From a virus, in IMG/VR virus record IMGVR_UViG_3300029319_000419, positions 1-26,377 of that record: a stretch of DNA of 26,377 nucleotides. The stretch is one strand, 5' to 3'. Below the pieces are notes generated by a model. The model made no database searches, had not been told where the DNA came from, and saw only the letters and a list, made by a program, of their open reading frames with translations. How positions within the stretch are numbered: position 1 is the stretch's first letter; the number at the start of each line of letters is the position of its first letter. The translations under genes were made by a program, and so were the position numbers. Shown one piece after another: positions 1 through 26,377 of this stretch.

Positions 1-405
1 AAGACAAACACCTTAACAGGTACAACTTCAGCAGGTAGCATTGTTGTTACAGGAGAGGGTGGTTCTACCACAACGAACTTACAACAAGGGTTAGCTAAAG
101 CATGGTGCGTTTTTGATGGTGAAGGAACAGTAGCTATAACGGATAGCAATAATAGTGCATCATTAACAGATGTTGCTGTAGGAGATTACACTTTAGGTTT
201 TACAAATAATATGAATAGTGCAGCTTATGCAGTTAGTGGCTCAAGTGTTGGTAGTGACTCTGGTAGTTATTACAATTTTTTGTGTGGTGATAGTGCAAAT
301 AACACAACTAGCGTATATGAAATTAATTTTGTACATAGAAACGATGGCAGTGCTCAAATAGATAATGACCATAGTGCCACTATAGTGCACGGAGACTTAG
401 CATAA
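1..405 (+). CDS. Small fibre-tip-like paralog 1 (5' end cut by window edge)
   Basis: The reading frame is open from base 1, giving 134 residues with the true start to the left. It is the first of six related short proteins here. Shared features are a GLAKxW segment, an S/N-rich stretch ending in SLTD, a GDYTxxFTNNM segment and a C-terminal HGDLA. I recall the middle block as a repeat-like beta domain common at tips of marine phage tail fibres, so a receptor-contacting or fibre-decorating role is inferred. It is almost a copy of the gene at 3023-3442, differing at scattered positions only. Its stop overlaps the next start (TAATG). An internal ATG at 211 would give only 64 residues and lacks most of the shared domain, so it is not the start. 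Confidence 0.8.
   Translation, partial: KTNTLTGTTSAGSIVVTGEGGSTTTNLQQGLAKAWCVFDGEGTVAITDSNNSASLTDVAVGDYTLGFTNNMNSAAYAVSGSSVGSDSGSYYNFLCGDSANNTTSVYEINFVHRNDGSAQIDNDHSATIVHGDLA
293..347 (+). repeat. 55-base direct repeat, copy 1
   Basis: An exact 55-base match to 3330-3384 within paralogs 1 and 5. A second exact run of 36 bases (194-229 with 3231-3266) lies at the same 3037-base offset, within a longer highly similar segment. Confidence 0.88.
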
Positions 406-407
406 TG
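391..407 (+). promoter_or_regulatory. Ribosome binding site inside paralog 1 C-terminus
   Basis: GGAGA at 391-395 is formed by Gly and Asp codons of the terminal GDLA and stands nine bases before the overlapping ATG at 405. Confidence 0.8.
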
Positions 408-818
408 GCAAACGGAACAATAGCATTTGATACATTAACAACATCTGATTCAGTTAATACGAATACAGAGAAGTCTATTGATACAAGTTACATTTTTAAT
501 GGTGTAGCTAAAGTATTTATGAGAGCACCAAGCAATCACGCATCAATTAGTGAATCTTTTAATGTGAGTTCTCTTGATGATGATGGAACAGGAGATTTTG
601 GTATAAACTATACAAATAACTTTGCAACAAACACTCACTTTCCTATGGTTCATATTCCTAGTGGTGGAACTGCAGGTAACTCTGATGGACATTTTTGCGA
701 ATGTGAAGCAAGTAACACGTCATCAGGTGAATATGAAGCATGGTATGGAGATGCAGGAACAAACTTAACATTTATTGATTGGCCCACTGCACACGCAACT
801 TTTGGAGAACTAGCATGA
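405..818 (+). CDS. Small fibre-tip-like paralog 2
   Basis: This 137-residue protein is the most diverged member of the paralog family. It keeps GVAKVF near residue 33, SFNVSSLDD near 53, DGTGDFGINYTNNF near 60-73 and the C-terminal GELA, where the others have GDLA. The middle third, which in this family varies most, contains a Cys pair (CECE) and aromatic residues (Tyr, Trp). No signal peptide or membrane helix is visible, as expected for a virion part. Start ATG overlaps the preceding TAA and is served by GGAGA inside the preceding gene. Its own stop overlaps the next ATG (ATGA). A fibre-tip or receptor-binding function is inferred from family resemblance and position beside the fibre genes. 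Confidence 0.8.
   Translation: MANGTIAFDTLTTSDSVNTNTEKSIDTSYIFNGVAKVFMRAPSNHASISESFNVSSLDDDGTGDFGINYTNNFATNTHFPMVHIPSGGTAGNSDGHFCECEASNTSSGEYEAWYGDAGTNLTFIDWPTAHATFGELA
804..817 (+). promoter_or_regulatory. Ribosome binding site inside paralog 2 C-terminus
   Basis: GGAGA at 804-808 (Gly-Glu codons of GELA) lies six bases before ATG 815, and decides that start over the upstream ATG at 779. Confidence 0.8.
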
Positions 819-1300
819 CAATAAAAACACCAAAGTTTCAAGGCACACATTTATGGGACAGATTGTGTTGGGCAAAAGAAAACTTAGAAGGTAAACAATC
901 AGACTATCGCATTGTATGGGAAGACCCTGATGCACCTGAAGAGTGTTCTAAAATAACTGTACCTGACCCAAACTGGATGGCTTGTGCATTACAAGGTGGC
1001 ATACTACCACCTGTAGAAGTCTATTGGGCATTAGCAGAAGATGAAGCAAAGCCTGACTTTAAGAAACATACAAGAGGTTATTTGCTACACAATACTAAAC
1101 CTGTTGAAGCAATGACAGAAGAACAAGCAATAGAATATTTAATTATGAAAGACATACCACAAAGAGTGTGGAGAGAATATCAAAAAGCTAATAAACCAAG
1201 ATTAGTGATTTGTAAAAAGAATCAGCTTCCAAGTACAAGAGAGTGGCGAAACGCTTGGAAGATTGATGAGAATATAATAGCCACTGATAAGGCAGCATAA
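815..1300 (+). CDS. Tail-assembly-like protein with REWRNAW motif
   Basis: A 161-residue protein started at ATG 815 (ATGA overlap with the preceding stop). A longer version from 779 would begin well inside the previous gene and ignores the GGAGA at 804-808. Its C-terminal third reads LVICKKNQLPSTREWRNAWKI. The pattern of a small residue, then P-x-x-R-E-x-R-N-A-W, recurs in short proteins beside tail-fibre genes in many phages, often called tail-assembly chaperones. The N-terminal part (LWDRLCWAKENL, WEDPDAPEE) is not recognised. It sits between paralogs, directly before a second protein of the same general kind, which supports a fibre folding or attachment role. That function is an inference, and a structural component is the alternative. 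Confidence 0.72.
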   Translation: MTIKTPKFQGTHLWDRLCWAKENLEGKQSDYRIVWEDPDAPEECSKITVPDPNWMACALQGGILPPVEVYWALAEDEAKPDFKKHTRGYLLHNTKPVEAMTEEQAIEYLIMKDIPQRVWREYQKANKPRLVICKKNQLPSTREWRNAWKIDENIIATDKAA

Positions 1301-1311
1301 AGGAGAACACA

Positions 1312-1689
1312 ATGCCAACAACAAATATCGTAGATAAAAATGGTGTTACTGTAGATGCTTCTACAGTTACCAAACCTTCCGATAGACACTTCAGAGGTGC
1401 TTGGGTCGTAGACTCAGACAAGAAGGTCATATCAGAAGACATGACTGAAGCTAAGAAAATCTTTCAAGATAAGATTAGAGAAGTCAGAAAACCACTACTA
1501 GAAGCAGAAGATGTAGTGTACATGAAAGCATTAGAAGCAGGAGATTCCTCTGCACAATCAGCTAGTGTAACTAAGAAGAAAGCTCTTAGAGATGCACCTG
1601 CAGCAAGTGCAATATCAAGTGCAGATACTATTGCAAAGCTCAAGGCAGCTTGGGATACATCTGTATTAGGTGACAGTCCATACGCATAA
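1312..1689 (+). CDS. Tail-assembly-like protein, XkdW/chaperone type
   Basis: A 125-residue protein with a good ribosome site (AAGGAG, 10 bases before ATG). After a variable head it has HFRGAWVVD (about residues 26-34), then a helical stretch AKKIFQDKIREVRKPLLEAED, an EAGD motif (near 84), ALRDAPA and a C-terminal AKLKAAWD. This order (RxAW, DK(I)R..R.P.L, A-E-x-GD, K..LRD) is one I know from small phage proteins coded near tail fibres, variously called tail-assembly or XkdW-like proteins. It probably helps assemble or join fibres. It follows the REWRNAW protein by 11 bases and precedes a fibre-tip paralog, so the pair interrupts the paralog array. Confidence 0.72.
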   Translation: MPTTNIVDKNGVTVDASTVTKPSDRHFRGAWVVDSDKKVISEDMTEAKKIFQDKIREVRKPLLEAEDVVYMKALEAGDSSAQSASVTKKKALRDAPAASAISSADTIAKLKAAWDTSVLGDSPYA

Positions 1690-1699
1690 GGAGTAAGCT

Positions 1700-2140
1700 A
1701 TGGCTCTAACTAAAGTCAACAGAGGTGGCTTAAATACTGGTATCTCTGATTCTAGTAATGCTACCTTTCTAACTATAGATAGTTCTGAACAGGCAGTAAT
1801 TAAATCTGAAGGTGGTGCAGTAACAACATCTGTGCAACAAGGGTTAGCTAAAGTTTATGTTCATGTTGACCAAAGAAGCACACAAACTATTCAAGGAAGT
1901 TTTAATGTTGGAAGTATAACTGATAATGCCACAGGTGTAACAATTACAAATTATACAAACAATATGAATGATGCTTTATATTCAGTTGTAGGCTCATGTG
2001 ATGGAGCAATAAAAGCGTACTACCAACATCAGTTTTATAGTGAAACAACAAGTTCAGTATATACATACAATTCTCCAGATCAAAGTTTAAGTAATGCAGA
2101 TAATGTTGTTTGTACTGCAATTTTAGGAGATTTAGCGTAA
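1700..2140 (+). CDS. Small fibre-tip-like paralog 3
   Basis: A 146-residue family member beginning MALTKVNRGG, a common kind of N-terminus for short phage fibre proteins. Shared landmarks are VQQGLAKVYVH near residue 45, GSFNVGSITDNATG near 66, NYTNNM near 84 and the C-terminal ILGDLA. The segment between TNNM and the end is Tyr, Ser and Gln rich and unlike the other copies, marking the probable variable face. It has its own upstream GGAG (TAAGGAGTAAGCTATGG), so here translation starts independently of the gene before. At its 3' end GGAGA lies within the Gly-Asp codons and the stop overlaps the next ATG. Confidence 0.82.
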   Translation: MALTKVNRGGLNTGISDSSNATFLTIDSSEQAVIKSEGGAVTTSVQQGLAKVYVHVDQRSTQTIQGSFNVGSITDNATGVTITNYTNNMNDALYSVVGSCDGAIKAYYQHQFYSETTSSVYTYNSPDQSLSNADNVVCTAILGDLA

Positions 2141-2142
2141 TG
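2126..2142 (+). promoter_or_regulatory. Ribosome binding site inside paralog 3 C-terminus
   Basis: GGAGA at 2126-2130 (Gly-Asp codons) lies nine bases before the TAATG-overlapped ATG at 2140, and favours it over the ATG at 2110. Confidence 0.8.
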
Positions 2143-2598
2143 GGATATATAGGTAAATCACCCACCAATGGGGTAAGAAACAGATTTGTATATCAGGCTA
2201 CTGCAGGTCAAACAACTTTCAGTGGTAGTGATGCAAACTCTTTGACACTAACTTACACAGATAGTTTGTACATGGATGTGTATCAGAATGGTGTGTTACT
2301 CAAAGCAGGGACAGACTACACTGCAACAAGTGGTACAAGTGTTGTATTAGTACAAGGTGCAAGTTTAAATGACCATGTAGAGATGATTGTTTACGATGTG
2401 TTCTCCGTAAACGAAACCTACACTAAAACTGAATCAGATGACAGATATCCCTTCTTAGGCAACAATAGTATTATCAGAACAAATGGACAGACTATAAGTG
2501 CAGATATAACAATCAGTTCTAGCACCAACGGATTATCAGCAGGTCCTATAACACAATCAGCGACAGTTACTGTTAATGGTTATTGGAGTATCGTATGA
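2140..2598 (+). CDS. Tail fibre adaptor / N-terminal virion-attachment protein
   Basis: A 152-residue protein started at the ATG that overlaps the preceding TAA. The longer frame from 2110 reads through the earlier gene and is rejected. It opens MGYIGKSPTNGVRNRF, followed by a beta-rich block with GQTTFSG, LTLTYTDSLYMDVYQNG and VEMIVYDVFSV up to about residue 94. This is a module I recognise as the N-terminus of many marine podovirus tail fibres, probably the part bound to the tail. Downstream are a YTKTESDDRYPFLG segment like trimer-shaft linkers and a short beta tail. Here the module stands nearly alone, without the usual long shaft, so tips may be supplied by the small proteins around it. 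That division of labour is inferred. Confidence 0.8.
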   Translation: MGYIGKSPTNGVRNRFVYQATAGQTTFSGSDANSLTLTYTDSLYMDVYQNGVLLKAGTDYTATSGTSVVLVQGASLNDHVEMIVYDVFSVNETYTKTESDDRYPFLGNNSIIRTNGQTISADITISSSTNGLSAGPITQSATVTVNGYWSIV

Positions 2599-3023
2599 CA
2601 AGTCAATTAAATGTAGATACCATTGTAGATAAAGCAGGTAGTGGTGGCACGAATGTTAAAGTTAAAGGTTCTAACTCAACTTATGTAGATGGTACAACCA
2701 CACAGAATTTAATTAAGGGGGTAGCAAAAGCATGGGTAGACCACGAAACTGCTTCAACTTATACTATAGAAAATAGTCTTAATATTGCTTCATTAACAGA
2801 CCTTGGCACAGGTGGAGCAGATGTAAATTTAACAAACAATATGTCTAATGCTCATAATGCTGCTACAGGAGGGGGTGGTAATGGCACTGGTTATTCTGGC
2901 TCTCTTTTGATGTGTACTTGGATGCACACATCAGAAAAATTTAAAGCAGTATCAGTGTGGGTTGATGGTACATATTATGATGGACCTTACAGTCATGGAG
3001 TAGTACACGGAGACTTAGCATAA
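2595..3023 (+). CDS. Small fibre-tip-like paralog 4
   Basis: A 142-residue family member, MTSQLNVDTIVDKAGSGG at the N-terminus. I use the ATG at 2595 (ATGA overlap), which has GGAG six bases upstream (GGAGTATCGTATG). The ATG at 2583 four codons earlier has no such site. Family landmarks are GVAKAWVDH, SLNIASLTDLGTGG, NLTNNM and C-terminal VVHGDLA. Between them is a glycine-rich variable block (GGGGNGTGYSG) with a Cys-Thr-Trp-Met segment. The stop overlaps the next ATG, and GGAGA at 3009-3013 lies in the Gly-Asp codons. A fibre-tip role is inferred from the family. Confidence 0.82.
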   Translation: MTSQLNVDTIVDKAGSGGTNVKVKGSNSTYVDGTTTQNLIKGVAKAWVDHETASTYTIENSLNIASLTDLGTGGADVNLTNNMSNAHNAATGGGGNGTGYSGSLLMCTWMHTSEKFKAVSVWVDGTYYDGPYSHGVVHGDLA

Positions 3024-3025
3024 TG
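3009..3025 (+). promoter_or_regulatory. Ribosome binding site inside paralog 4 C-terminus
   Basis: GGAGA at 3009-3013 with nine bases to ATG 3023. The 17-base string is identical to that at 391-407. Confidence 0.8.
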
Positions 3026-3442
3026 GCAAGTGAACTTAAAGTAGATAAATTTACAGGTGTAACCACAGCAGGTTCTATACTTGTTACAGGTGAAGGCAAT
3101 AGTACAACAACTAATCTGCAACAAGGGTTGTCTAAATCTTGGTGTGTTTTTAATGGTGAAGGAACAGTAGCTATAACCGATAGCCACAATAGTGCATCTT
3201 TGACAGATGTTGCTGCAGGAGATTATACTCTAGGTTTTACAAATAATATGAATAGTGCAGCTTATGTTGTTTCAGGTTCAAGTGTTGGTAGTGACTCTGG
3301 TAGTTATTTCAATTTTTTGTGTGGTGATGGTGCAAATAACACAACTAGCGTATATGAAATTAATTTTGTACATAGAAACGATGGTGGAAGTCAAGTAGAT
3401 AATGACCATAGTGGTGTGGTTATACATGGAGATCTCGCATAA
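3023..3442 (+). CDS. Small fibre-tip-like paralog 5 (near copy of paralog 1)
   Basis: A 139-residue protein, complete, and the best guide to the start of the cut gene at 1-405. It begins MASELKVDKFTG, then GSILVTGEG, NLQQGLSKSWCVF, SHNSASLTD, GDYTLGFTNNM, and ends VVIHGDLA. The two copies align without gaps at a fixed 3037-base offset, with exact runs of 36 and 55 bases. Their differences are scattered, with a cluster just before the C-terminus (GSAQIDNDHSATI against GGSQVDNDHSGVV). This points to a fairly recent duplication or to exchange between copies. TAATG overlaps occur at both ends. Confidence 0.83.
   Translation: MASELKVDKFTGVTTAGSILVTGEGNSTTTNLQQGLSKSWCVFNGEGTVAITDSHNSASLTDVAAGDYTLGFTNNMNSAAYVVSGSSVGSDSGSYFNFLCGDGANNTTSVYEINFVHRNDGGSQVDNDHSGVVIHGDLA
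3330..3384 (+). repeat. 55-base direct repeat, copy 2
   Basis: An exact partner of 293-347, in the same orientation. Recombination between the copies would delete or amplify the 3 kb between them, which holds paralogs 2-4, the assembly-like pair and the fibre adaptor. Confidence 0.88.
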
Positions 3443-3444
3443 TG
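3428..3444 (+). promoter_or_regulatory. Ribosome binding site inside paralog 5 C-terminus
   Basis: GGAGA at 3428-3432 with nine bases to ATG 3442. The Leu codon is CTC here and the Asp codon GAT, yet GGAGA is kept. Confidence 0.8.
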
Positions 3445-3840
3445 GCTAGTATATTAAGAGTAAATACAATAACAGATGCAAGTAGCAATAATTCTACTGC
3501 TGTATCTGTAATTAATCAAGGTACTGCTAAAGTTTGGGTACAATTTGCAGGGTCTTCTTTATCTGGAACAGGCACTACAGGAGTGGATGACTCCTTTAAC
3601 TTAACAAGTATGACAGATGATGATACTGGAAGATACACAGTTAATATTAACAGTGACATGAATAATAATGACTATGCTGTTCATAGCACTATAGGACAGA
3701 GTGCATCAGCAATAGGTGATTACATTACTAATATTGCATCCCTTGCCACAGGCACAGTTCAAGTTGGAAGTTCTACAAGAGGTGGTTCGTATGCAGATTC
3801 AGCAGTACATTCTGTAACGATACACGGAGACTTAGCATGA
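3442..3840 (+). CDS. Small fibre-tip-like paralog 6
   Basis: A 132-residue family member beginning MASILRVNTITDASSNNST. Landmarks are GTAKVWVQF near residue 29, DDSFNLTSMTDDDTGRYTV near 49-67, a degenerate NINSDM where others have FTNNM, and the C-terminal TIHGDLA. Several Ser/Thr-rich strands follow. The start overlaps the preceding TAA and the stop overlaps the ATG of the large fibre gene (ATGA). It is the last of the array, placed directly before the 372-residue fibre, which fits a structural partnership at the tail tip. No enzyme motifs are seen. Confidence 0.82.
   Translation: MASILRVNTITDASSNNSTAVSVINQGTAKVWVQFAGSSLSGTGTTGVDDSFNLTSMTDDDTGRYTVNINSDMNNNDYAVHSTIGQSASAIGDYITNIASLATGTVQVGSSTRGGSYADSAVHSVTIHGDLA
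3826..3839 (+). promoter_or_regulatory. Ribosome binding site inside paralog 6 C-terminus
   Basis: GGAGA at 3826-3830 with six bases to ATG 3837 of the large fibre gene, through an ATGA overlap. Confidence 0.8.
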
Positions 3841-4955
3841 GTAAAGCAGCAGAATTAGCAAAGATGGGTGAAGTCTTAACCAACGGACAGATTGGTGGGC
3901 GAAGGAATATTTTTATTAATGGTGCGATGCAAGTTAGTCAAAGAGCTACCAGTTTTACTTTTGCTCACGATGGAACTACAAACGCATACACTTTAGACAG
4001 ATGGCAGTGGCAGATGCACAATACAGATGAGTTAGATGGAACTATTACACAAGACTCTGATGCTCCAAATGGTTTTAGAAACTCTTTTAAATGGGCAACA
4101 GGCACTGCTGAAAGTGCTATAGCCACTGATGAATTTGTTGCTTTTCGTCAAAATGTAGAAGCACAAGATTTACAACAATTAAAATATGGAACAGCAGATG
4201 CAGAAACACTGACTATTTCTTTCTACGTTAAATCCTCTGTGACAGGAACTTATGGATTAAGTTTATATAAACCTGATCAAACAGCTAGAAGTAACAATAA
4301 AACGTACACAATAGATTCTGCTAACACTTGGGAATTTAAAACAGTTACTTTTCCTGCCGATACAGGTGGAGGAGGAATTGATAACGATACTGGAAATGGC
4401 ATGAGTGTTTATTGGGTATTAGCTTCAGGTGCAACATACGATGGTACTAATTCTAATGGAGCTTGGATAAACAATTCAACAGCAAGTTTTTTTGGTGGTC
4501 ATGCTCAAGATGGAGTAATAACGACTGCTAGTGCAACTTGGCAAATTACTGGAGTACAGATGGAAGTAGGCTCTACTGCTACACCATTTGAGCATAGGTC
4601 ATTTGGGGAAGAATTGCTTTTATGTCAAAGATATTACAGAGAATTTGGTGGTGATTCATCAAGCGATGCCTTATTTGCAGGAATGTGGTTTTCAGCCACT
4701 ACTGTTTATTGCCCTGTTCAACTTTTACCACATATGAGAGCTGCACCGACAGTATCAAGAAAAACTACAAATTCTAGCGATTTTGATATTTTTGGTGCAG
4801 GATTTTCAGACCAAGGTGACCAAGCAGTTGGAAGTAATATAAGGCATAATAATTTTAGATTTTATATAATAGGTGGCGTAAGCAGGACAGCAGGACATGG
4901 TTCATGGACACAGACTAGTGGTGGACAAGCAATAACTTGTGATGCAGAACTTTAG
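3837..4955 (+). CDS. Tail fibre / adhesin with carbohydrate-binding-like domain
   Basis: This 372-residue protein has a short helical head (to about residue 20), then RRNIFINGAMQVSQR (about 22-36) and YTLDRWQW (about 51-58), a pair of motifs typical of a jelly-roll domain near the C-terminus of phage tail fibres. A beta sandwich follows (TISFYVKSSVTGTYGLSL, WEFKTVTFPADT) and closes with ITGVQMEVGSTATPFEHR and a CQRYYREFG motif near residues 238-273. The last 100 or so residues are probably the host-contacting tip. A carbohydrate-binding function is family-based inference. It is translationally coupled to paralog 6 (ATGA overlap, GGAGA in the gene before). Confidence 0.82.
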   Translation: MSKAAELAKMGEVLTNGQIGGRRNIFINGAMQVSQRATSFTFAHDGTTNAYTLDRWQWQMHNTDELDGTITQDSDAPNGFRNSFKWATGTAESAIATDEFVAFRQNVEAQDLQQLKYGTADAETLTISFYVKSSVTGTYGLSLYKPDQTARSNNKTYTIDSANTWEFKTVTFPADTGGGGIDNDTGNGMSVYWVLASGATYDGTNSNGAWINNSTASFFGGHAQDGVITTASATWQITGVQMEVGSTATPFEHRSFGEELLLCQRYYREFGGDSSSDALFAGMWFSATTVYCPVQLLPHMRAAPTVSRKTTNSSDFDIFGAGFSDQGDQAVGSNIRHNNFRFYIIGGVSRTAGHGSWTQTSGGQAITCDAEL

Positions 4956-4963
4956 AGGATATA

Positions 4964-5140
4964 ATGAATATAACATCAGCACAATATATTAAAGATATAA
5001 TTTCAGGAAATATAGATACTGTTAAAATAGTAGTTGATAACAAAGAAATGTATGTACCGATAGATAATCAAAACAAAGACTACGCAGAAATACTAAAACA
5101 AGTCAAAGCAGGAACACTAACCATCAAGGATGCCGAGTAA
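4964..5140 (+). CDS. Small protein of unknown function, 58 residues
   Basis: A short gene in the gap between the fibre and the membrane protein, with an AGAGGAT site upstream of its ATG and a stop two bases before the next start. The protein opens MNITSAQYIKDI and has a middle KEMYVPIDNQNKDYAEIL followed by a Lys/Gly/Asp tail. The pattern V-P-x-D-x-x-N-x-x-Y-x-x-I occurs in small proteins near tail-fibre genes of many phages, where function is unknown. It contains no membrane helix and no cysteine. Confidence 0.68.
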   Translation: MNITSAQYIKDIISGNIDTVKIVVDNKEMYVPIDNQNKDYAEILKQVKAGTLTIKDAE

Positions 5141-5142
5141 AC

Positions 5143-5376
5143 ATGGAAATAGATGCAATGTTATTTTGGAACATCATCCTAACTATGGTCGTTGTGCCAT
5201 TCGGTTGGGCATTCAACAAGATGTTTGGCGAAGTAAAAAGATTACAGATATTATTAAACAAGACTCGTGAAGAGTATGCACGTAAAGATGATGTTAAAGA
5301 AGATATGCATGACATCATGGATGCAATGAAAAGATTAGAAGATAAGTTAGATAAGATATTAATTGGAGCTAAATAG
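5143..5376 (+). CDS. One-helix membrane protein with coiled coil, holin-like
   Basis: A 77-residue protein with one hydrophobic segment (about residues 6-24: MLFWNIILTMVVVPFGWAF) followed by a charged helix with heptad-like spacing (about 30-74). One membrane anchor plus a C-terminal coiled coil resembles XhlA/haemolysin-like accessory lysis proteins and some small phage holins. A lysis or virion membrane role is inferred only. No endolysin is visible nearby. Its TAG overlaps the GTG of the next gene. Confidence 0.7.
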   Translation: MEIDAMLFWNIILTMVVVPFGWAFNKMFGEVKRLQILLNKTREEYARKDDVKEDMHDIMDAMKRLEDKLDKILIGAK

Positions 5377-7310
5377 TGGCAAGATTTGTAGGATTTAAGC
5401 CTGAGGGCATGAGAAAGATCGCCTCTAAGATGGGTTATCAAGGATCAATGGATGACTTTGATAACTACTTACAACAGAACCCTGAAAAGAAAAGACAAAT
5501 GATTGTCTATGAATCTATGGCTAGACAAATGGCTAAAGGAGGAGTTGTTAAGATGCAAGAGGGGGGTGCAACTCAACCTGCTAGTCCTAGACAGTTACCA
5601 CAAGCAGATGTTCCTGTAGGAACTACTTACACACCTACAACAGGCATAGGAGAAGTTTTTACAGACAGAGCACAAACACCTGCTTTACCTGAAGGTGGTA
5701 CAACCATACCTGTTGGCACACAAGTAACACAAGAACAAATTATAGGTGGTGATACAGGTCAGTTAGCAGGTACAGTTGCAGTGCCTACAACAGTAGCACC
5801 CACAACAACTACACAATTACAACAAGCACAAGATGCTAATTTAACTGCAGTGCAAACTGCATCTGACGCAGTAGATACTGCTCTATCTGCAACTCAGGCA
5901 GCACAAACAACATTAGAAGACCCAAGAGCAAAAGTATTAGCGGCACAACAAACAGCAACAAGTGTTGGCAATGTAACTGCTGCTCAAGGTCAATCTACGT
6001 TATTACAAAATCCTGTACAAAGACAAATAGAACAAGGAGAGCTAATATCTCCTTCTGCCAATGCACAGACTGCTTCTAAGTTTACTGAACAAATAGAAGC
6101 GGCAACTGCAACACCTACAAGTCAGGCAACTGTAGCAGGACAACTTGCAATGTTAACATCGAACTTTGATGCTAATGATCCACCTGCATGGGCAGCAGGT
6201 GCTATTAGAGGTGTACAAGCAGTTATGCAACAAAGAGGTTTAGGTGCTTCTAGTATTGCAGGACAAGCACTTGTTCAAGCTGCAATGGAATCAGCGTTAC
6301 CTGTAGCACAAGCTGATGCAAGTGTATTTGCACAGTTCGAAAATCAAAACTTATCTAATAGACAACAAAGAGCAATGTTAGCTGCTCAACAAAGAGCACA
6401 ATTTATTGGAATAGAGTTTGATCAAGACTTTCAAGCTAGAGTGCAAAATGCTGCAAAAGTTAGTGATATTGCAAATCAAAACTTTACTGCAGAACAACAG
6501 ATAGCTTTAGAAAATAGTCGTGTTACAAATACAATGAATTTAAATAATCTGTCTAATAGACAGGCTCTTGTGTTAGCAGAGGCATCTGCTTTAGCTAATA
6601 TGGATTCTTCTAATTTAAATAATAGACAACAGGCTGCAGTTCAGAATGCACAAAATTTCTTACAACAAGATATGGCTAACTTAACTAACTTGCAACAAAC
6701 AGAATTATTTAAAGCACAACAAAGAACACAAGCGTTGTTTACAGACCAAGCCGCCACTAACGCTGCAAATCAATTCAATGCAACATCACAAAATCAAGTT
6801 GATCAGTTCTTCTCTAACTTAGCACAACAAGCATCACAGTTTAATGCAACACAAGCTAATGCACAGGCACAATTTAATGCAGGTCAAGTGAATACAGTAG
6901 AAAGATTTAATGCTGAGATAAACAATCAACGTGATCAGTTTAATGCACAGAATCAATTAGCCATAGCACAGAATAATGCAGTATGGAGAAGAGAGATCGC
7001 TACTGCAGATACTGTTGCAGTAAACAGAGCTAATGAACTTAATGCAAATGCAGTATTAGATATATCAAAAGAAGCCTATGACAATTTGTGGTCACATTAT
7101 AGTGATACAATGGAATGGGCGTGGACAAGTGCTGACAATCAGTTGGATAGAATAAACGCTTTAGCAGTCGCAGAGATAAGTAAAGATGTAAAAATGGAAA
7201 CTGCAAAAATGCAGTCAAGTTCTGCGGCAGGAACTGCAGTAGGTAATTTAATCGGAACATTAGGCTCTGCTGCTATAAGTAAAGGATTATTTGGAGGTTT
7301 ACCTAAATGA
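5376..7310 (+). CDS. Probable internal virion protein with 11-residue helical repeats
   Basis: A 644-residue protein starting at GTG, whose G is the last base of the preceding TAG. Residues 1-60 are a basic folded head (MARFVGFKPEGMRKIASKMG). About 62-250 is Thr/Gln/Ala rich and low complexity. About 255-460 is Gln/Ala helical. In 467-524 the motif F-N-A recurs every 11 residues, and N-L marks at 325, 391, 413 and 435 keep the same register. Around 570-600 there is a Trp-rich helix (AYDNLWSHYSDTMEWAW). The C-terminus is Gly/Ala rich (GTAVGNLIGTLGSAAI). Such long Gln/Ala helical proteins next to very large virion proteins in podovirus-like genomes are usually ejected core proteins. The role is inferred from composition and place. 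Confidence 0.75.
   Translation: MARFVGFKPEGMRKIASKMGYQGSMDDFDNYLQQNPEKKRQMIVYESMARQMAKGGVVKMQEGGATQPASPRQLPQADVPVGTTYTPTTGIGEVFTDRAQTPALPEGGTTIPVGTQVTQEQIIGGDTGQLAGTVAVPTTVAPTTTTQLQQAQDANLTAVQTASDAVDTALSATQAAQTTLEDPRAKVLAAQQTATSVGNVTAAQGQSTLLQNPVQRQIEQGELISPSANAQTASKFTEQIEAATATPTSQATVAGQLAMLTSNFDANDPPAWAAGAIRGVQAVMQQRGLGASSIAGQALVQAAMESALPVAQADASVFAQFENQNLSNRQQRAMLAAQQRAQFIGIEFDQDFQARVQNAAKVSDIANQNFTAEQQIALENSRVTNTMNLNNLSNRQALVLAEASALANMDSSNLNNRQQAAVQNAQNFLQQDMANLTNLQQTELFKAQQRTQALFTDQAATNAANQFNATSQNQVDQFFSNLAQQASQFNATQANAQAQFNAGQVNTVERFNAEINNQRDQFNAQNQLAIAQNNAVWRREIATADTVAVNRANELNANAVLDISKEAYDNLWSHYSDTMEWAWTSADNQLDRINALAVAEISKDVKMETAKMQSSSAAGTAVGNLIGTLGSAAISKGLFGGLPK
6348..6947 (+). repeat. 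Coding region of an 11-residue (hendecad) protein repeat
   Basis: Within the 644-residue virion protein, Phe of F-N-A (or F-F) falls at residues 467, 478, 489, 500, 511 and 522, exactly 11 apart. N-L pairs at 325, 391, 413 and 435 are spaced 66, 22 and 22. At DNA level this is a degenerate 33-base periodicity. An 11-residue period suits long, gently right-handed helical bundles. Confidence 0.8.
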
Positions 7311-13613: not shown

Positions 13614-15575
13614 TTATCTTCCTTCTATATCAACTATCTCACACGATCCAGCAACACATGCCAAATCTTTACTTCCTGTAGTTGTATCTTCTTTTTCAAA
13701 ATCTTTTAACTTACTCCAATCAATTGACTCAGGCATATCATTTAATAAATTATTATATTCTTCTTCATCAATATCTTGATAAGGTGCTTGTTTGTAAGCG
13801 TGTTCACTGAAAGGTAAAAAAGATATTCCTGATACTTCATCAAAGTTATCATACACCCATGCACCAACTTTCATCCATTCATTCTCTTTTACAGATACAG
13901 TGACTGAAGGTTTGTGTTCACACCAATGTCTTTGAAAAGTTAGCCAATAATTAAGTTGTTCTATGGCAGTCATCTCAGTTCTGGTGGTAGCACCTTTTGG
14001 TGATTTCATGGGAAAACTAAAAACAGAAACACTGTCAGGCTTAGTAATATCAGGCTCTATAGGTATACCTGCTTCTTTCATAAACTGTGTTAGTGGGTCT
14101 TTATTATCTCCACGAACAGTTCTAATATAATACGAATTATGTCTAGCATGAATACCACTTGCACTATCGACTAACTGAGAAACAGTTCCTGATGGTTTAA
14201 TGCAAGTGATAGCAGTAGATTGAGGTATACCTAAATCTTTAGCTACCTTTTTATTTGTTTCTATTGCAACTTCTTTTAATTGTTCAAGAGTGTCTTCTAA
14301 ATTTTTATCGTATGGAGATAGAATAGGACAATCAAGAATACCTGTTAGGGAAACTCCTAATAGTCTTTCTTCTTCTGTGTTATCTTTCCACACTTTACGT
14401 AAATATTTAAAATCTGTAAGAGTAGATTGGAATGTTCCTAATATGGTAGCCATTCTAACTTTATCTTTTAATGTTTGTAAATCATCTGTTTGTCTACATA
14501 CGACCTCTGTAAGATTACAAAACTGATAAGGTCTTAATATAATCTCACTACAAGGATTACAACCAAACTGTATGTAGTCTAAAGGTAACACAGGCTTTTC
14601 TACCAAAGCATATTTTCTTCTTTTATTTTTAGCTGCTTGTTTGATGGCTGATTCTCTATTGAAAATGCCACGCTCTCCTGATTTAGATTCATATAAGGCT
14701 GTCCACTCTCTCATGAATGTACCCATCTCAGGTTTACCTTTGAATGCTACAGAGTTATTGGCTAATGCTCTTTGCCCTTCGTTCTCCCACCATTGACCTG
14801 ACTTTGCATGTCTCATTTGATCATCACCTAAATTAGACAAAGATATAAGTGCAGAACGTCTAACACCACCAACAACTACAACTTCTCCTATCTTGCACAT
14901 AATATCGTGACACTCAATAGGATATAATCTTCTCCCTGATGCCTTCTTAAATATGTTTATGCAAAAATGATATAAGTCTACTAAAGGTTGAGGACCTGAC
15001 GCTCTACCACCAAATGTTTTTAATCTTGCACCTGATGGTCTAACTTGTGTTACATCTAAAGATGGAACTTGTCCCACATATAACATAGCAATAAGTTCAC
15101 GTAACGCTCTTGCCCAACCCGGTCTGCTATCTCCAACTGTTATAACTGTAGTGCTATTTTCAAAGTGTTCATTAACTACAGGTAACTTATCAACATTCTC
15201 TCTTTCAACAGAGAATCCAACACCTGTGCCACACATAAGAATATACATACATTCATCAAAACTTCTTGGACTATCTACAGGTATGTAACTACAGTTATAA
15301 CCTGCAACATGACATCTGTCTAAAGCAACACCTGCAGTCATCAACGCTCTCATGCTAGGCATAACACTAAGAGAAACAATAGCATCAGTCATTTTTTCTT
15401 TTAATGCCTTTGTTATTGTATAATCATTTTTAGTTTTAAGATGATTATCCATGTAATCAAAATATCTATCAACAGTTTCAAGCCAAGTTTCTCTTCTTTG
15501 CTCTTCATCATTCCATCTCGCATAACGAGATAAAGCTATAAAATTTTGATAATCTGTTGGTAAATAATTATTCAT
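13614..15575 (-). CDS. nrdJ: Class II (adenosylcobalamin) ribonucleotide reductase, monomeric type
   Basis: A 653-residue enzyme that converts ribonucleoside triphosphates to deoxyribonucleotides using vitamin B12, so phage DNA synthesis gets dNTPs. The RTPR-like catalytic set is present. Cys95 is in NCSYIPV. Asn340, the radical Cys342 and Glu344 are in NPCSE. Cys353 is in FCNLTE. A C-terminal shuttle pair Cys640/Cys645 is spaced C-x4-C as in Lactobacillus RTPR (C731/C736). Also visible are GTGVGFSVE, GGVRRSA and KPSGTVSQLVDSASGIHAR. It is shorter than the 739-residue Lactobacillus enzyme and has no N-terminal ATP-cone. Its GGAG site lies in the end of the 55-residue gene just upstream. No small NrdB-like subunit is present, as expected for class II. 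Confidence 0.95.
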   Translation of the reverse strand: MNNYLPTDYQNFIALSRYARWNDEEQRRETWLETVDRYFDYMDNHLKTKNDYTITKALKEKMTDAIVSLSVMPSMRALMTAGVALDRCHVAGYNCSYIPVDSPRSFDECMYILMCGTGVGFSVERENVDKLPVVNEHFENSTTVITVGDSRPGWARALRELIAMLYVGQVPSLDVTQVRPSGARLKTFGGRASGPQPLVDLYHFCINIFKKASGRRLYPIECHDIMCKIGEVVVVGGVRRSALISLSNLGDDQMRHAKSGQWWENEGQRALANNSVAFKGKPEMGTFMREWTALYESKSGERGIFNRESAIKQAAKNKRRKYALVEKPVLPLDYIQFGCNPCSEIILRPYQFCNLTEVVCRQTDDLQTLKDKVRMATILGTFQSTLTDFKYLRKVWKDNTEEERLLGVSLTGILDCPILSPYDKNLEDTLEQLKEVAIETNKKVAKDLGIPQSTAITCIKPSGTVSQLVDSASGIHARHNSYYIRTVRGDNKDPLTQFMKEAGIPIEPDITKPDSVSVFSFPMKSPKGATTRTEMTAIEQLNYWLTFQRHWCEHKPSVTVSVKENEWMKVGAWVYDNFDEVSGISFLPFSEHAYKQAPYQDIDEEEYNNLLNDMPESIDWSKLKDFEKEDTTTGSKDLACVAGSCEIVDIEGR

Positions 15576-18379: not shown

Positions 18380-20401
18380 TCACGATACCTCTTTTGTGTC
18401 AAGCCAGTTGTCACCCATCTTCGCTTCAAGTAACAATGGGACATTAAAATTGATACCATAATAATTGTCTATTATTGTTTTCATATCATTATTGATTGAC
18501 TTAATTATAAACAAAACTTGATCTTGTTCCTCAGGATGAACATCAATAACAATTGAGTCATGCACTGTGTTAACAATACAAGATTTACAAGTAGATAATC
18601 TTTCATCAATCTTCATTAAAACAAGAGGAACAATATCTGCAGTAGCAAAACTTTGCACAGGATAGTTTTTTATCTGTGTAAAATGACTCACTGTTCCATT
18701 TACTCTCCTCTCAACATCAGGAAAAGAAAACTCTCTACCTGATGGTATTCTAATCTTCCTTGTATTTATAGCCTCTTTAGCCAATCTGGAATGCCATAAT
18801 GCGATTTCTTTGTATTTCTTCGTGAACTGTTCGTAGTATTTCGCTTCAGCATTTGTTCTTCCAAAACCTGTTGCTCCGTAGAGTGGTGCAAAGGTGTGTG
18901 CTTTCGCTTCTTGCCTACTAATTTTTTGACCTGATTCCGTAATGACGTTAGCAGTGTACGAATGAACATCAAACCCATCTTGTATCTCCTTCATTGCTAC
19001 TTTATCTTGTGATAAGAACGCTGCAGTTCTAAATTCTAATTGTGCAAAATCTGCTTCTAAAATTTTGCCATCCTTCCATCGTGATACAAATACTTTTTTA
19101 ACAGGAAATGTACCACCTCTAGGCATGTTCTGCATGTTAGGATCAGCACCACTAAACCTGCCAGTTGCAGTTCTATGCTGAAGTAATCTTACATGCAACA
19201 TTCCATCTGCCTTAGTGTGTATCTTTATACCATCTACAAAAGAAGACAAATAAGTATCAAGAGATGATAATCTTTGTATGTCTGCTAAAAAGTTATAGGC
19301 TTCCATGCTATTATTTCTTTTTGTAACATGTTGTAAAACCTCTAACATTTTTTTGTTAACACTAAAACCATTTGCACTTACCCATTTTACATTAGGTGGA
19401 TTAAATTTAAATCCTGCAATCTTGCCACTATTTACAAAGACAAATCCTTCACCATTACACTTGGGACATTTAGGTAGCTTGGCATATAAACTGCCATCTT
19501 TTTTATACTTCTTAATTGTTCCTGCACCATAACAGTTCCAACATTTCTCTGCTTTTGTTTTGTAAACAATATCACTATTCTCTTTTACTGTCTGATGAAA
19601 CTTTGTTTTCTCCATTGTATGTCCAAAGTGATTCATCCATAATGATTTATCTTTTGGTTTTCTACTGTAGAGTATCCAAGACATCTGTTCTGGACTATTC
19701 ATATTGATAGGCGTATCACCCATTAACTCTTTTACTTGTCCTTTTAATCTTTTTTCTATATCTAGTTTTTCTTTTTGAAACTCTAACTCTACAGATTTAA
19801 GTGTATCTACATCTACTTTAAATCCTCTGCGATATATCTTAGCTAATGCAACAGACACTTTATTTGTAAACACTACTGTGTTCATCAGACCTGCATCTTC
19901 TTTTGAATTTAATCTTTTATATTGTAGATCAGACAGTTCTTGTGTTGCTTTTAAATCTGCAGATAAATACTGCTTTAATTCATCTCTTGGTATGCCATCC
20001 ACACCTACACCTTGAGCGAAGTAATGCTTGAGCGTGTCCTCTTTCTGTGTGGCAAGCTCATGTCTTTTAGCACACTCCTCAAGAGACAATGGCTCTTTCT
20101 TACCTCTCTGAAGAACATACTCTGCTAACATTGTATCAAAGACAGGACCATCATATTTGTATCCTGTTTCCCACAACCACATAAGATCATAGGCTATGTT
20201 GTGACCGATGATGATAGTAGCTTTGTCTAATAACTCCTGCAGATATATTCCATCAGGTACATCCATATTAAATAAATGCTCTTGTCCATTATCTTCTAAA
20301 CATCCAACTAAAACTAATTTATTGGATGGTTCAAACGGATCAAGGTGCATTTTACCTTCTCTTTTTACAACAGTATTCTCTACATCTATTGTAAGTTTCA
20401 T
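18380..20401 (-). CDS. polA: Family A DNA polymerase with 3'-5' exonuclease and DnaJ-type zinc insert
   Basis: This 673-residue replicative polymerase has an exonuclease domain with Asp6/Glu8, His67-Asn68 to Asp72 (GHNIAYD) and Tyr145/Asp149. Residues 287-315 hold CWNCYGAG and CPKCNGEG, two C-x2-C-x-G-x-G units as in DnaJ zinc fingers, between exonuclease and polymerase. Polymerase motifs are A (DFAQLEFR, Asp451), B (Arg496, Lys500, Phe504, Tyr508) and C (VHDS, Asp615). The residue equivalent to E. coli Phe762 is Phe504. No 5'-3' exonuclease domain is present, as in T7. A partial DnaJ domain at this point in a family A polymerase was, as I recall, reported for SAR116 phage HMO-2011. The ATG overlaps the preceding TGA. 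Confidence 0.96.
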   Translation of the reverse strand: MKLTIDVENTVVKREGKMHLDPFEPSNKLVLVGCLEDNGQEHLFNMDVPDGIYLQELLDKATIIIGHNIAYDLMWLWETGYKYDGPVFDTMLAEYVLQRGKKEPLSLEECAKRHELATQKEDTLKHYFAQGVGVDGIPRDELKQYLSADLKATQELSDLQYKRLNSKEDAGLMNTVVFTNKVSVALAKIYRRGFKVDVDTLKSVELEFQKEKLDIEKRLKGQVKELMGDTPINMNSPEQMSWILYSRKPKDKSLWMNHFGHTMEKTKFHQTVKENSDIVYKTKAEKCWNCYGAGTIKKYKKDGSLYAKLPKCPKCNGEGFVFVNSGKIAGFKFNPPNVKWVSANGFSVNKKMLEVLQHVTKRNNSMEAYNFLADIQRLSSLDTYLSSFVDGIKIHTKADGMLHVRLLQHRTATGRFSGADPNMQNMPRGGTFPVKKVFVSRWKDGKILEADFAQLEFRTAAFLSQDKVAMKEIQDGFDVHSYTANVITESGQKISRQEAKAHTFAPLYGATGFGRTNAEAKYYEQFTKKYKEIALWHSRLAKEAINTRKIRIPSGREFSFPDVERRVNGTVSHFTQIKNYPVQSFATADIVPLVLMKIDERLSTCKSCIVNTVHDSIVIDVHPEEQDQVLFIIKSINNDMKTIIDNYYGINFNVPLLLEAKMGDNWLDTKEVS

Positions 20402-25486: not shown

Positions 25487-25611
25487 AATAATAACTCCTT
25501 TGCCACTTCAAATACTGCATAGGCATACAGTATTATAATAATTAATTTTAATGTCTTGTTAAATGAATCGTCAGACGCTTTTACCCAATGTGGATAGTTT
25601 TTCTTAGGCAT
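25483..25611 (-). CDS. Small single-helix membrane protein, 42 residues
   Basis: The ATG lies in the last codons of the methyltransferase (ATGCCTAA, eight-base overlap) and the stop overlaps the next ATG. The protein MPKKNYPHWVKASDDSFNKT is followed by a hydrophobic helix (LKLIIIILYAYAVF) and VAKELLL. Its final codons carry the AAAGGAG used by the following gene, a further sign of coupling. No family is recognised. Confidence 0.58.
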   Translation of the reverse strand: MPKKNYPHWVKASDDSFNKTLKLIIIILYAYAVFEVAKELLL

Positions 25612-26377
25612 GTACAAAATATCCTTTCTCATAATTGTCAGACTTTATTTTTTTCGGGAGCAGTATCTCACCTAGTATGTGAGCAACTACATCAACTGTC
25701 CAACCATTACCAATCATCTTGTATCGTTGTGTCTTTGATACACCTTCTGTGTAATTGTCAGGCAGAGTCTGTAATCTCTCGCACTCGATAGGTGTTAACT
25801 TTCTCCATGTCATACCTTCTACCACGATATTATCTTTTTGTACAGTTGTTAAACAGTTTGTCTTGTCATCACCTCGTACTTCTATCTGTGGTGTGAGAGG
25901 TAAGTTCATCTGATAATCTTTGCGAACACCTTTCTCGTCAAGCCTACGATTAACAATGCGACCACCTTTAGCTGAATACGTGGCAACTTTAGGCTCTCTG
26001 TTACCACCTTGCATGGTGAGTAACGTAGGTGCTTTGCCATCCATGTGATACACTCGCTTGGCTTGTTCGTGTTTGTAGTGTGCATACTTATCAGCATAGC
26101 CTACTTCTAGTGATCTATCGACAATCGTCATGCCATTGTTACCTGCACCTTTGTGCATGGTAGCAGTAGTACATAAGGCTTTCTGATCTACTGACCGATG
26201 ATGCCTAGCATTCCGTTCATTGATAGGAACAGGTGGCTCATCATGATCCTCTTGCAGTATATCTTTTAACACTAAGCCTTTGTCTTCCATAGGTGGTATG
26301 ATTATCTGTTCATACTTGCCATTGATTAGCATACCAAACCAATAGTTTCTCCATCTGTTTTGTGGAGATAGACTGCT
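25604..26377 (-). CDS. DNA cytosine-5 methyltransferase, C-terminal part (5' end beyond window)
   Basis: The frame stays open to the right edge, so the internal ATG at 26332 is not the real start; 257 residues are visible. The first ones read SPQNRWRNYWFG, matching motif VIII (QxRxR) of C5 methyltransferases. A target-recognition-like middle follows (MDGKAPTLLTMQGGNREPKV), then RKLTPIECERLQTLPDNYTE (motif IX) and YKMIGNGWTVDVVAHIL (motif X). The SAM-binding and Pro-Cys motifs must lie upstream outside the window. It would methylate cytosines, probably shielding phage DNA from host restriction. No paired restriction enzyme gene is evident. Confidence 0.9.
   Translation of the reverse strand, partial: SSLSPQNRWRNYWFGMLINGKYEQIIIPPMEDKGLVLKDILQEDHDEPPVPINERNARHHRSVDQKALCTTATMHKGAGNNGMTIVDRSLEVGYADKYAHYKHEQAKRVYHMDGKAPTLLTMQGGNREPKVATYSAKGGRIVNRRLDEKGVRKDYQMNLPLTPQIEVRGDDKTNCLTTVQKDNIVVEGMTWRKLTPIECERLQTLPDNYTEGVSKTQRYKMIGNGWTVDVVAHILGEILLPKKIKSDNYEKGYFVHA

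Follow-up and report, generated by a model that had tools for sequence, protein, structure and literature searches.

The GDLA end of phage fibre-tip-like genes as a probable dual-coded connector carrying the ribosome binding site of the next gene

We analyzed a 26,377-base contig of an uncultured virus (IMG/VR record IMGVR_UViG_3300029319_000419), called the window throughout, in which six paralogous fibre-tip-like genes end in the tetrapeptide Gly-(Asp/Glu)-Leu-Ala, the GDLA tag. We propose, with a probability of about 0.86, that the tag is a dual-coded connector that carries the Shine-Dalgarno (SD) sequence of the next gene. The Gly-Asp codons (GGA-GAY) would hold a 4-nt SD core by which the ribosome is brought to the next gene or kept there. 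The ATG of that gene overlaps the stop codon as TAATG or GCATGA, and the two genes would be translated in a coupled manner, by termination-reinitiation or by SD-assisted re-initiation. The tag is constrained at two levels, GG(A/G)G for RNA and Leu-Ala together with Asp over Glu for protein. Because the same tag precedes every partner, members of the array could be exchanged, duplicated or set before unrelated tail genes without loss of the next ribosome binding site.

All six paralogs match the profile phrog_11355 (“tail fiber protein”) over the paralog domain, with E values from 2e-8 to 5e-15. Five end in GDLA and one (405-818) in GELA, and GGAGA lies at positions 391, 804, 2126, 3009, 3428, and 3826. 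The ATGs of the next genes, at 405, 815, 2140, 3023, 3442, and 3837, all overlap the stop codon by 1 or 4 nt, which places GGAGA 9 nt upstream at TAATG overlaps and 6 nt upstream at ATGA overlaps. Asp is encoded by GAC or GAT, or replaced by Glu (GAA), and Leu by TTA, CTA, or CTC. In all of these respects the arrangement is exactly as an earlier reading of the sequence alone (the sequence-only reading) had described it. Since Asp and Glu codons both start with GA, GGAGA is automatic once GGA is followed by either residue, which leaves the third Gly base as the informative position in the window. GGA accounts for 34% (31/92) of all Gly codons in the six paralogs together; six of six GGA codons in the window alone is suggestive, not conclusive.

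The wider sample came from scans of IMG/VR with the window's proteins, which yielded about 280 loci (cited below by L numbers). The detection profile was made from the paralogs with the last six residues removed, which kept the tag from having any effect on which copies were found. The set of relatives comprised 639 distinct closed copies from 181 loci of the type of Puniceispirillum phage HMO-2011, forming 531 clusters at 85% identity of the pre-tag sequence. GDLA was the end of 578 copies and GELA of 16, and the next start was overlapped in 618 of the 639 (TAATG in 341, ATGA in 277). The terminal Gly codon, scored in 526 clusters, was GGA in 509 (97%) and GGG in 17 (3%), and GGT and GGC were not used once. 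The sequence-only reading had set terminal against other Gly codons as a check on its suggestion that the tag may be conserved for RNA reasons, and GGA made up 97% of the former versus 30% of the latter, among which GGT (47%) and GGC (15%) together reached 62%. The fairest control for terminal codon choice, an internal column that is 96% Gly, used 48% GGT, 38% GGA, 10% GGC, and 5% GGG. We consider the terminal bias across the 526 clusters of relatives decisive.

The exceptions follow the expected pairing with the ribosomal anti-SD sequence. Computed duplex energies were -6.9 kcal/mol for GGA, -6.0 for GGG, -3.3 for GGT, and -2.4 for GGC; GGG is the alternative to be expected if anti-SD pairing matters, because the change from A to G leaves a G-U wobble pair. 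The energy lay below -3.5 kcal/mol in all 618 overlapping copies of the family, 617 of which kept GGAG or GGGG. The claim that GGAGA is always kept thus stands for the window, while among the relatives the conserved core is GGAG (or the wobble form GGGG). Residues that replace Asp (Glu, Ala, Gly, and Val) all have G-initial codons, with one GGG-CAA exception, and Asn was never seen at this position among the relatives, though Asp-to-Asn changes are common at other conserved Asp columns. Where Ser replaces Asp, it is encoded by AGT, in five of six cases after GGG, which keeps GGAG one base later; a distant phage, Nsp-JY18, repeats this compensation with GGG-AGC. We interpret GG(A/G)G as an RNA constraint for translational coupling, because GGT and GGC are never used, Asp substitutes preserve GGAG, and the tag is absent from the 162 non-overlapping copies described next.

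The outgroup comprised 177 copies in which the same domain is C-terminal, taken from bacterial genomes or prophages, phages, and viral contigs outside the HMO-2011 group. None of the 162 outgroup copies that do not overlap a next start carries the tag, so that neither of the two outcomes that the sequence-only reading had named as refuting (no GGA bias at the terminal Gly, or a tag kept in uncoupled copies) was seen; they end in VAIFR, VAVFGD, and similar strings. In 103 of 136 spaced copies, the gap between stop and start holds an SD-like, purine-rich motif; the anti-SD affinity of the last codons was below -3.5 kcal/mol in none of 105 spaced copies versus 100% of overlapping family copies. 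The outer-set copies that are both tagged and overlapping are L317, Mel-JY33 (L288), and Nsp-JY18 (L290), and in L290 an untagged, spaced copy adjoins the tagged, overlapping one. A scan of viral contigs with the Nsp-JY18 copy as query found no relatives. Where an outgroup protein ends in Gly-Asp and the next start lies 0 to 3 nt past the stop, the codons are GGA-GAT in six of six cases. This suggests that the SD arose from an ancestral strand end (...FGD) and that the addition of Leu-Ala brought the stop onto the start. Several outgroup loci (L316, L301, L313, and others) hold tandem arrays of the same tip domain that are spaced, have intergenic SDs, and conserve the VAIFR end including its Arg.

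Copies within the family that lost the overlap are also informative. In one lineage (L047, L071, and L276), the protein ends in SDLA, with AGT in place of GGA, and reads AGT-GAT-TTG-GCA-TAG-GAGATATGATG; the junction, TAGGAGA(T/C)ATGATG, has the SD shifted to the stop codon and beyond, with Gly lost and DLA kept. In L035 and L041, GGAGAGACTTAA or GGGGAGACTTAA stands between the tag and GATAATG, which again gives an SD at the changed distance; the upstream gene of L098, 90% identical to theirs, has the ordinary end GGAGACTTAGCATGA. L155 holds a frameshifted paralog (1440-1640) whose protein stops before the tag (SVVR, then stop), with the DNA GGAGACTTAGCATGA intact. This copy (L155:1178) is suggestive of a natural separation of the RNA and protein functions, unless it reflects a sequencing error; some metagenomic contigs, L155 being an example, may carry such errors.

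The array at the start of the window is laid out as follows, all on the + strand, where each hinge comprises tag codons, SD, stop, and next start.

1..405 (+), fibre-tip-like paralog 1, 5' end cut by the window edge, ends HGDLA; phrog_11355 E=5e-15; 83% identity to the paralog at 3023
391..407 (+), hinge 1, GGAGACTTAGCATAATG
405..818 (+), paralog 2, ends FGELA; phrog_11355 E=2e-8
804..817 (+), hinge 2, GGAGAACTAGCATG
815..1300 (+), conserved uncharacterised protein, predicted to be coupled after paralog 2; 75% identity to HMO-2011 gp36
1312..1689 (+), tail-fibre-assembly-like protein, counterpart of HMO-2011 gp35; phrog_20196 E=2e-32, weak tail fiber assembly matches
1700..2140 (+), paralog 3, ends LGDLA; phrog_11355 E=4e-13
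2126..2142 (+), hinge 3, GGAGATTTAGCGTAATG
2140..2598 (+), adaptor-like protein, ends WSIV; next ATG at 2595
2595..3023 (+), paralog 4, ends HGDLA; phrog_11355 E=3e-11
3009..3025 (+), hinge 4, GGAGACTTAGCATAATG
3023..3442 (+), paralog 5, ends HGDLA; phrog_11355 E=5e-15
3428..3444 (+), hinge 5, GGAGATCTCGCATAATG
3442..3840 (+), paralog 6, ends HGDLA; phrog_11355 match; AlphaFold2 model
3826..3839 (+), hinge 6, GGAGACTTAGCATG
3837..4955 (+), large fibre protein, predicted to be coupled after paralog 6; phrog_4492 tail fiber E=1e-53

The genes that follow the tag in the window are unrelated to one another, as had been claimed: other paralogs, the uncharacterised 815-1300, the adaptor-like 2140-2598, and the large fibre 3837-4955. 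The gene 3' of 815-1300 is uncoupled and has its own intergenic SD (AGGAGAACACAATG); relatives of 815-1300 end without overlap in 120 of 123 cases. Across the relatives, BLAST separates the genes whose starts lie within the tag into more than a dozen mutually unrelated groups, most often other paralogs (361), the 815-1300 type (95), large fibres (65), and the adaptor type (35), with several rarer kinds. Among pairs of upstream genes from different loci with at least 90% identity, 28 of 103 are followed by different kinds of gene. In L034 and L031, for example, the upstream genes are 95% identical, yet one leads through GGAGATTTAGCATAATGG into a paralog and the other through GGAGATTTAGCATGACAA into a gene of the 815-1300 type. 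The overlap can switch between TAATG and ATGA behind the same tag, and in rearranged pairs the change of neighbor is located at the tag. The 30 nt before the tag are nearly random across copies and the tag is almost invariant, which makes it a fixed hinge between variable modules. These near-identical genes with unrelated successors behind the same tag support the idea of a portable translation start, and it is a reasonable inference that the tag eases the shuffling of array members.

The tag is also constrained as protein, so that the earlier alternative of conservation for RNA, for protein, or for both is answered by both. All six Leu codons are in use at the tag Leu among the relatives, and the Phe codons TTT and TTC do not occur there; because this pattern follows the genetic code and not an RNA motif, we attribute Leu to a protein-level constraint. 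Asp makes up 97% of its position, although Glu codons give the same GGAGA, and Ala is retained in the TAATG class despite a free third base. We read Leu-Ala and the preference for Asp over Glu as a protein constraint beside the RNA constraint. In an AlphaFold2 model of paralog 6 (mean pLDDT, 89.9), the tag directly follows the last beta-strand with a pLDDT of about 92. The top matches among viral structures are uncharacterised small proteins of phages and tail-fibre domains of marine phages; the top PDB match, the receptor-binding domain of the cyanophage Pam1 tailspike, is weak (E=0.024, TM 0.39), and H-type lectins match more weakly still. We think it likely that the paralogs are receptor-binding fibre tips.

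Two other signals were considered around the tag and rejected. An extended SD (AGGAG) is not general, as the base before GGA is free (T, C, A, or G). Linkage between GAC and a following CTN could have signaled RNA structure; a general avoidance of GATC explains it better (0.30 of expectation). These phages contain far fewer GATC sites than expected (1019 versus 3431 in loci L209-L287; 60 versus 106 in the window), and Asp before a CTN-type Leu codon is nearly always GAC for this reason. The avoidance suggests GATC-targeting restriction or methylation pressure.

Could protein structure account for everything, with GDLA needed at the end of the fibre tip for its structure or trimerisation and the likeness of GGAGA to an SD incidental? 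The freedom of the Leu codons without Phe, the dominance of Asp, the confident placement of the tag after the last strand, and the survival of DLA in the SDLA lineage after loss of GGAG all fit such an end. Left unexplained are the lack of GGT and GGC, GGG as the sole alternative, the compensated GGG-AGT variants, and the absence of the tag from the 162 non-overlapping copies; the codon data contradict protein structure as the sole cause, and we hold it to be scarcely credible. We likewise think it very unlikely that the tag spreads among paralogs by copying, as a short site of recombination or gene conversion, its codon uniformity a by-product, even though an almost invariant tag after near-random sequence, the switch of neighbors at the tag, and identical hinge strings within loci (in the window, hinges 1 and 4 are both GGAGACTTAGCATAATG) are what such copying would leave. 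Because Leu and Asp codons vary freely within the same 14 nt, homogenisation cannot explain the fixed third base of Gly and was ruled out as its cause. The likeness of these Leu and Asp codons within loci exceeds that between loci only mildly (0.46 versus 0.36 and 0.68 versus 0.59), and overlapping copies contain no GGT or GGC hinge although the other codons diverge. Microhomology at the tag may nevertheless help recombination.

A more serious rival, though less likely than not, is ordinary operon packing, in which overlap forces the SD into the upstream gene and the tag has no further role in module exchange. Unrelated overlapping gene pairs in the same contigs do carry SD-like 4-mers: 61% have one, spread over all three frames, versus 22% of gene ends that no downstream start follows. 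The adaptor-like 2140-2598 ends in WSIV at an overlapping ATGA (junction 2585-2597), and its TGG-AGT supplies GGAG in a frame other than that of the GDLA tag; the Ser codon of WSI is AGY (TGG-AGY) in 93 of 93 adaptor relatives versus 53% AGY at their other Ser codons. We regard WSIV as a second, independent family with the same logic. Packing would explain the RNA constraint but not an identical tag before well over ten kinds of next gene, the switches of overlap type, or the protein constraint on Leu-Ala. Several observations also weigh against a dual-coded connector. In one overlapping copy (L182) the codons are GGA-AGT, without the GGAG core. The contrast in tag and overlap is in part one between phage lineages, and few genomes (L290) offer an internal contrast. 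The copies are related by descent and exchange, so that counts overstate independence and are not separate events; with one copy per locus, the terminal Gly was GGA in 173, GGG in 3, and GGT or GGC in 0. Published mutations show, moreover, that the contribution of the SD to coupling differs widely between gene pairs (PMC6728339).

The dual-coded connector has partial precedents. In overlapping pairs with termination-reinitiation (Huber et al. 2019, PMC6728339), the solution differs from pair to pair, whereas here one tetrapeptide tag serves a whole multi-copy family with many kinds of next gene; coupling was measured in that study, whereas here the sequence shows the RNA and protein constraints, their link to overlap, and the rearrangements at the tag. 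That the genes are actually coupled is inferred from these, and ease of shuffling may be an advantage under selection and not just a side effect. Constraint of gene ends by a downstream SD has been described as genome-wide statistical biases (Palleja et al. 2009, PMC2784483, citing Eyre-Walker 1996), in contrast to the near-absolute constraint at one codon seen here, visible as compensated amino acid variants. The tail-fibre array of HMO-2011 (NC_021864, gp28-gp41) has the same gene order as the window, 24% of whose positions 1-6000 align to that phage at 69.5% identity, and homologous neighbors (gp36, gp35, gp33, and gp28). Its gp40, gp37, gp34, gp32, and gp29 end in GDLA with GGAGAC and overlap the next gene as in the window; the array genes are annotated only as tail fiber or hypothetical. 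We found no mention of the GDLA tag in the literature searched, which covered few subscription journals. The suggestion that the arrangement was undescribed thus holds in part: an SD inside the upstream gene is of a known kind, and the family-wide dual-coded hinge is new.

Elsewhere, the window encodes a B12-dependent (class II) ribonucleotide reductase (13614-15575, - strand) and a family A DNA polymerase (18380-20401, -) with an inserted CxxCxGxG-type zinc-finger stretch like the central domain of DnaJ (residues 285-327; weak Anti-TRAP match). A phage integrase (22891-23790, -) adjoins the replication genes, for which reason the phage may be temperate. The C-terminal part of a C-5 cytosine DNA methylase (25604-26377, -) is cut by the window edge, and no tRNA gene was found in the window.

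If the proposed connector is real, it offers a clear example from nature of an RNA signal that determines amino acids and of amino acids that restrict the RNA solutions, and its compensated variants let the two constraints be separated. GDLA with GGAGAY could serve as a simple marker for such arrays in metagenomes. We tentatively speculate, at somewhat less than even odds, that GDLA is a selected modular connector, a hinge of 14 to 17 nt that provides protein end, SD, stop, start, and microhomology for exchange, and that evolvability is part of the reason it is kept. If so, receptor-binding tip genes would be insertable, duplicable, and swappable as ready-to-translate cassettes, which would explain in concrete terms how these abundant ocean phages may shuffle many small fibre-tip genes with their expression intact.

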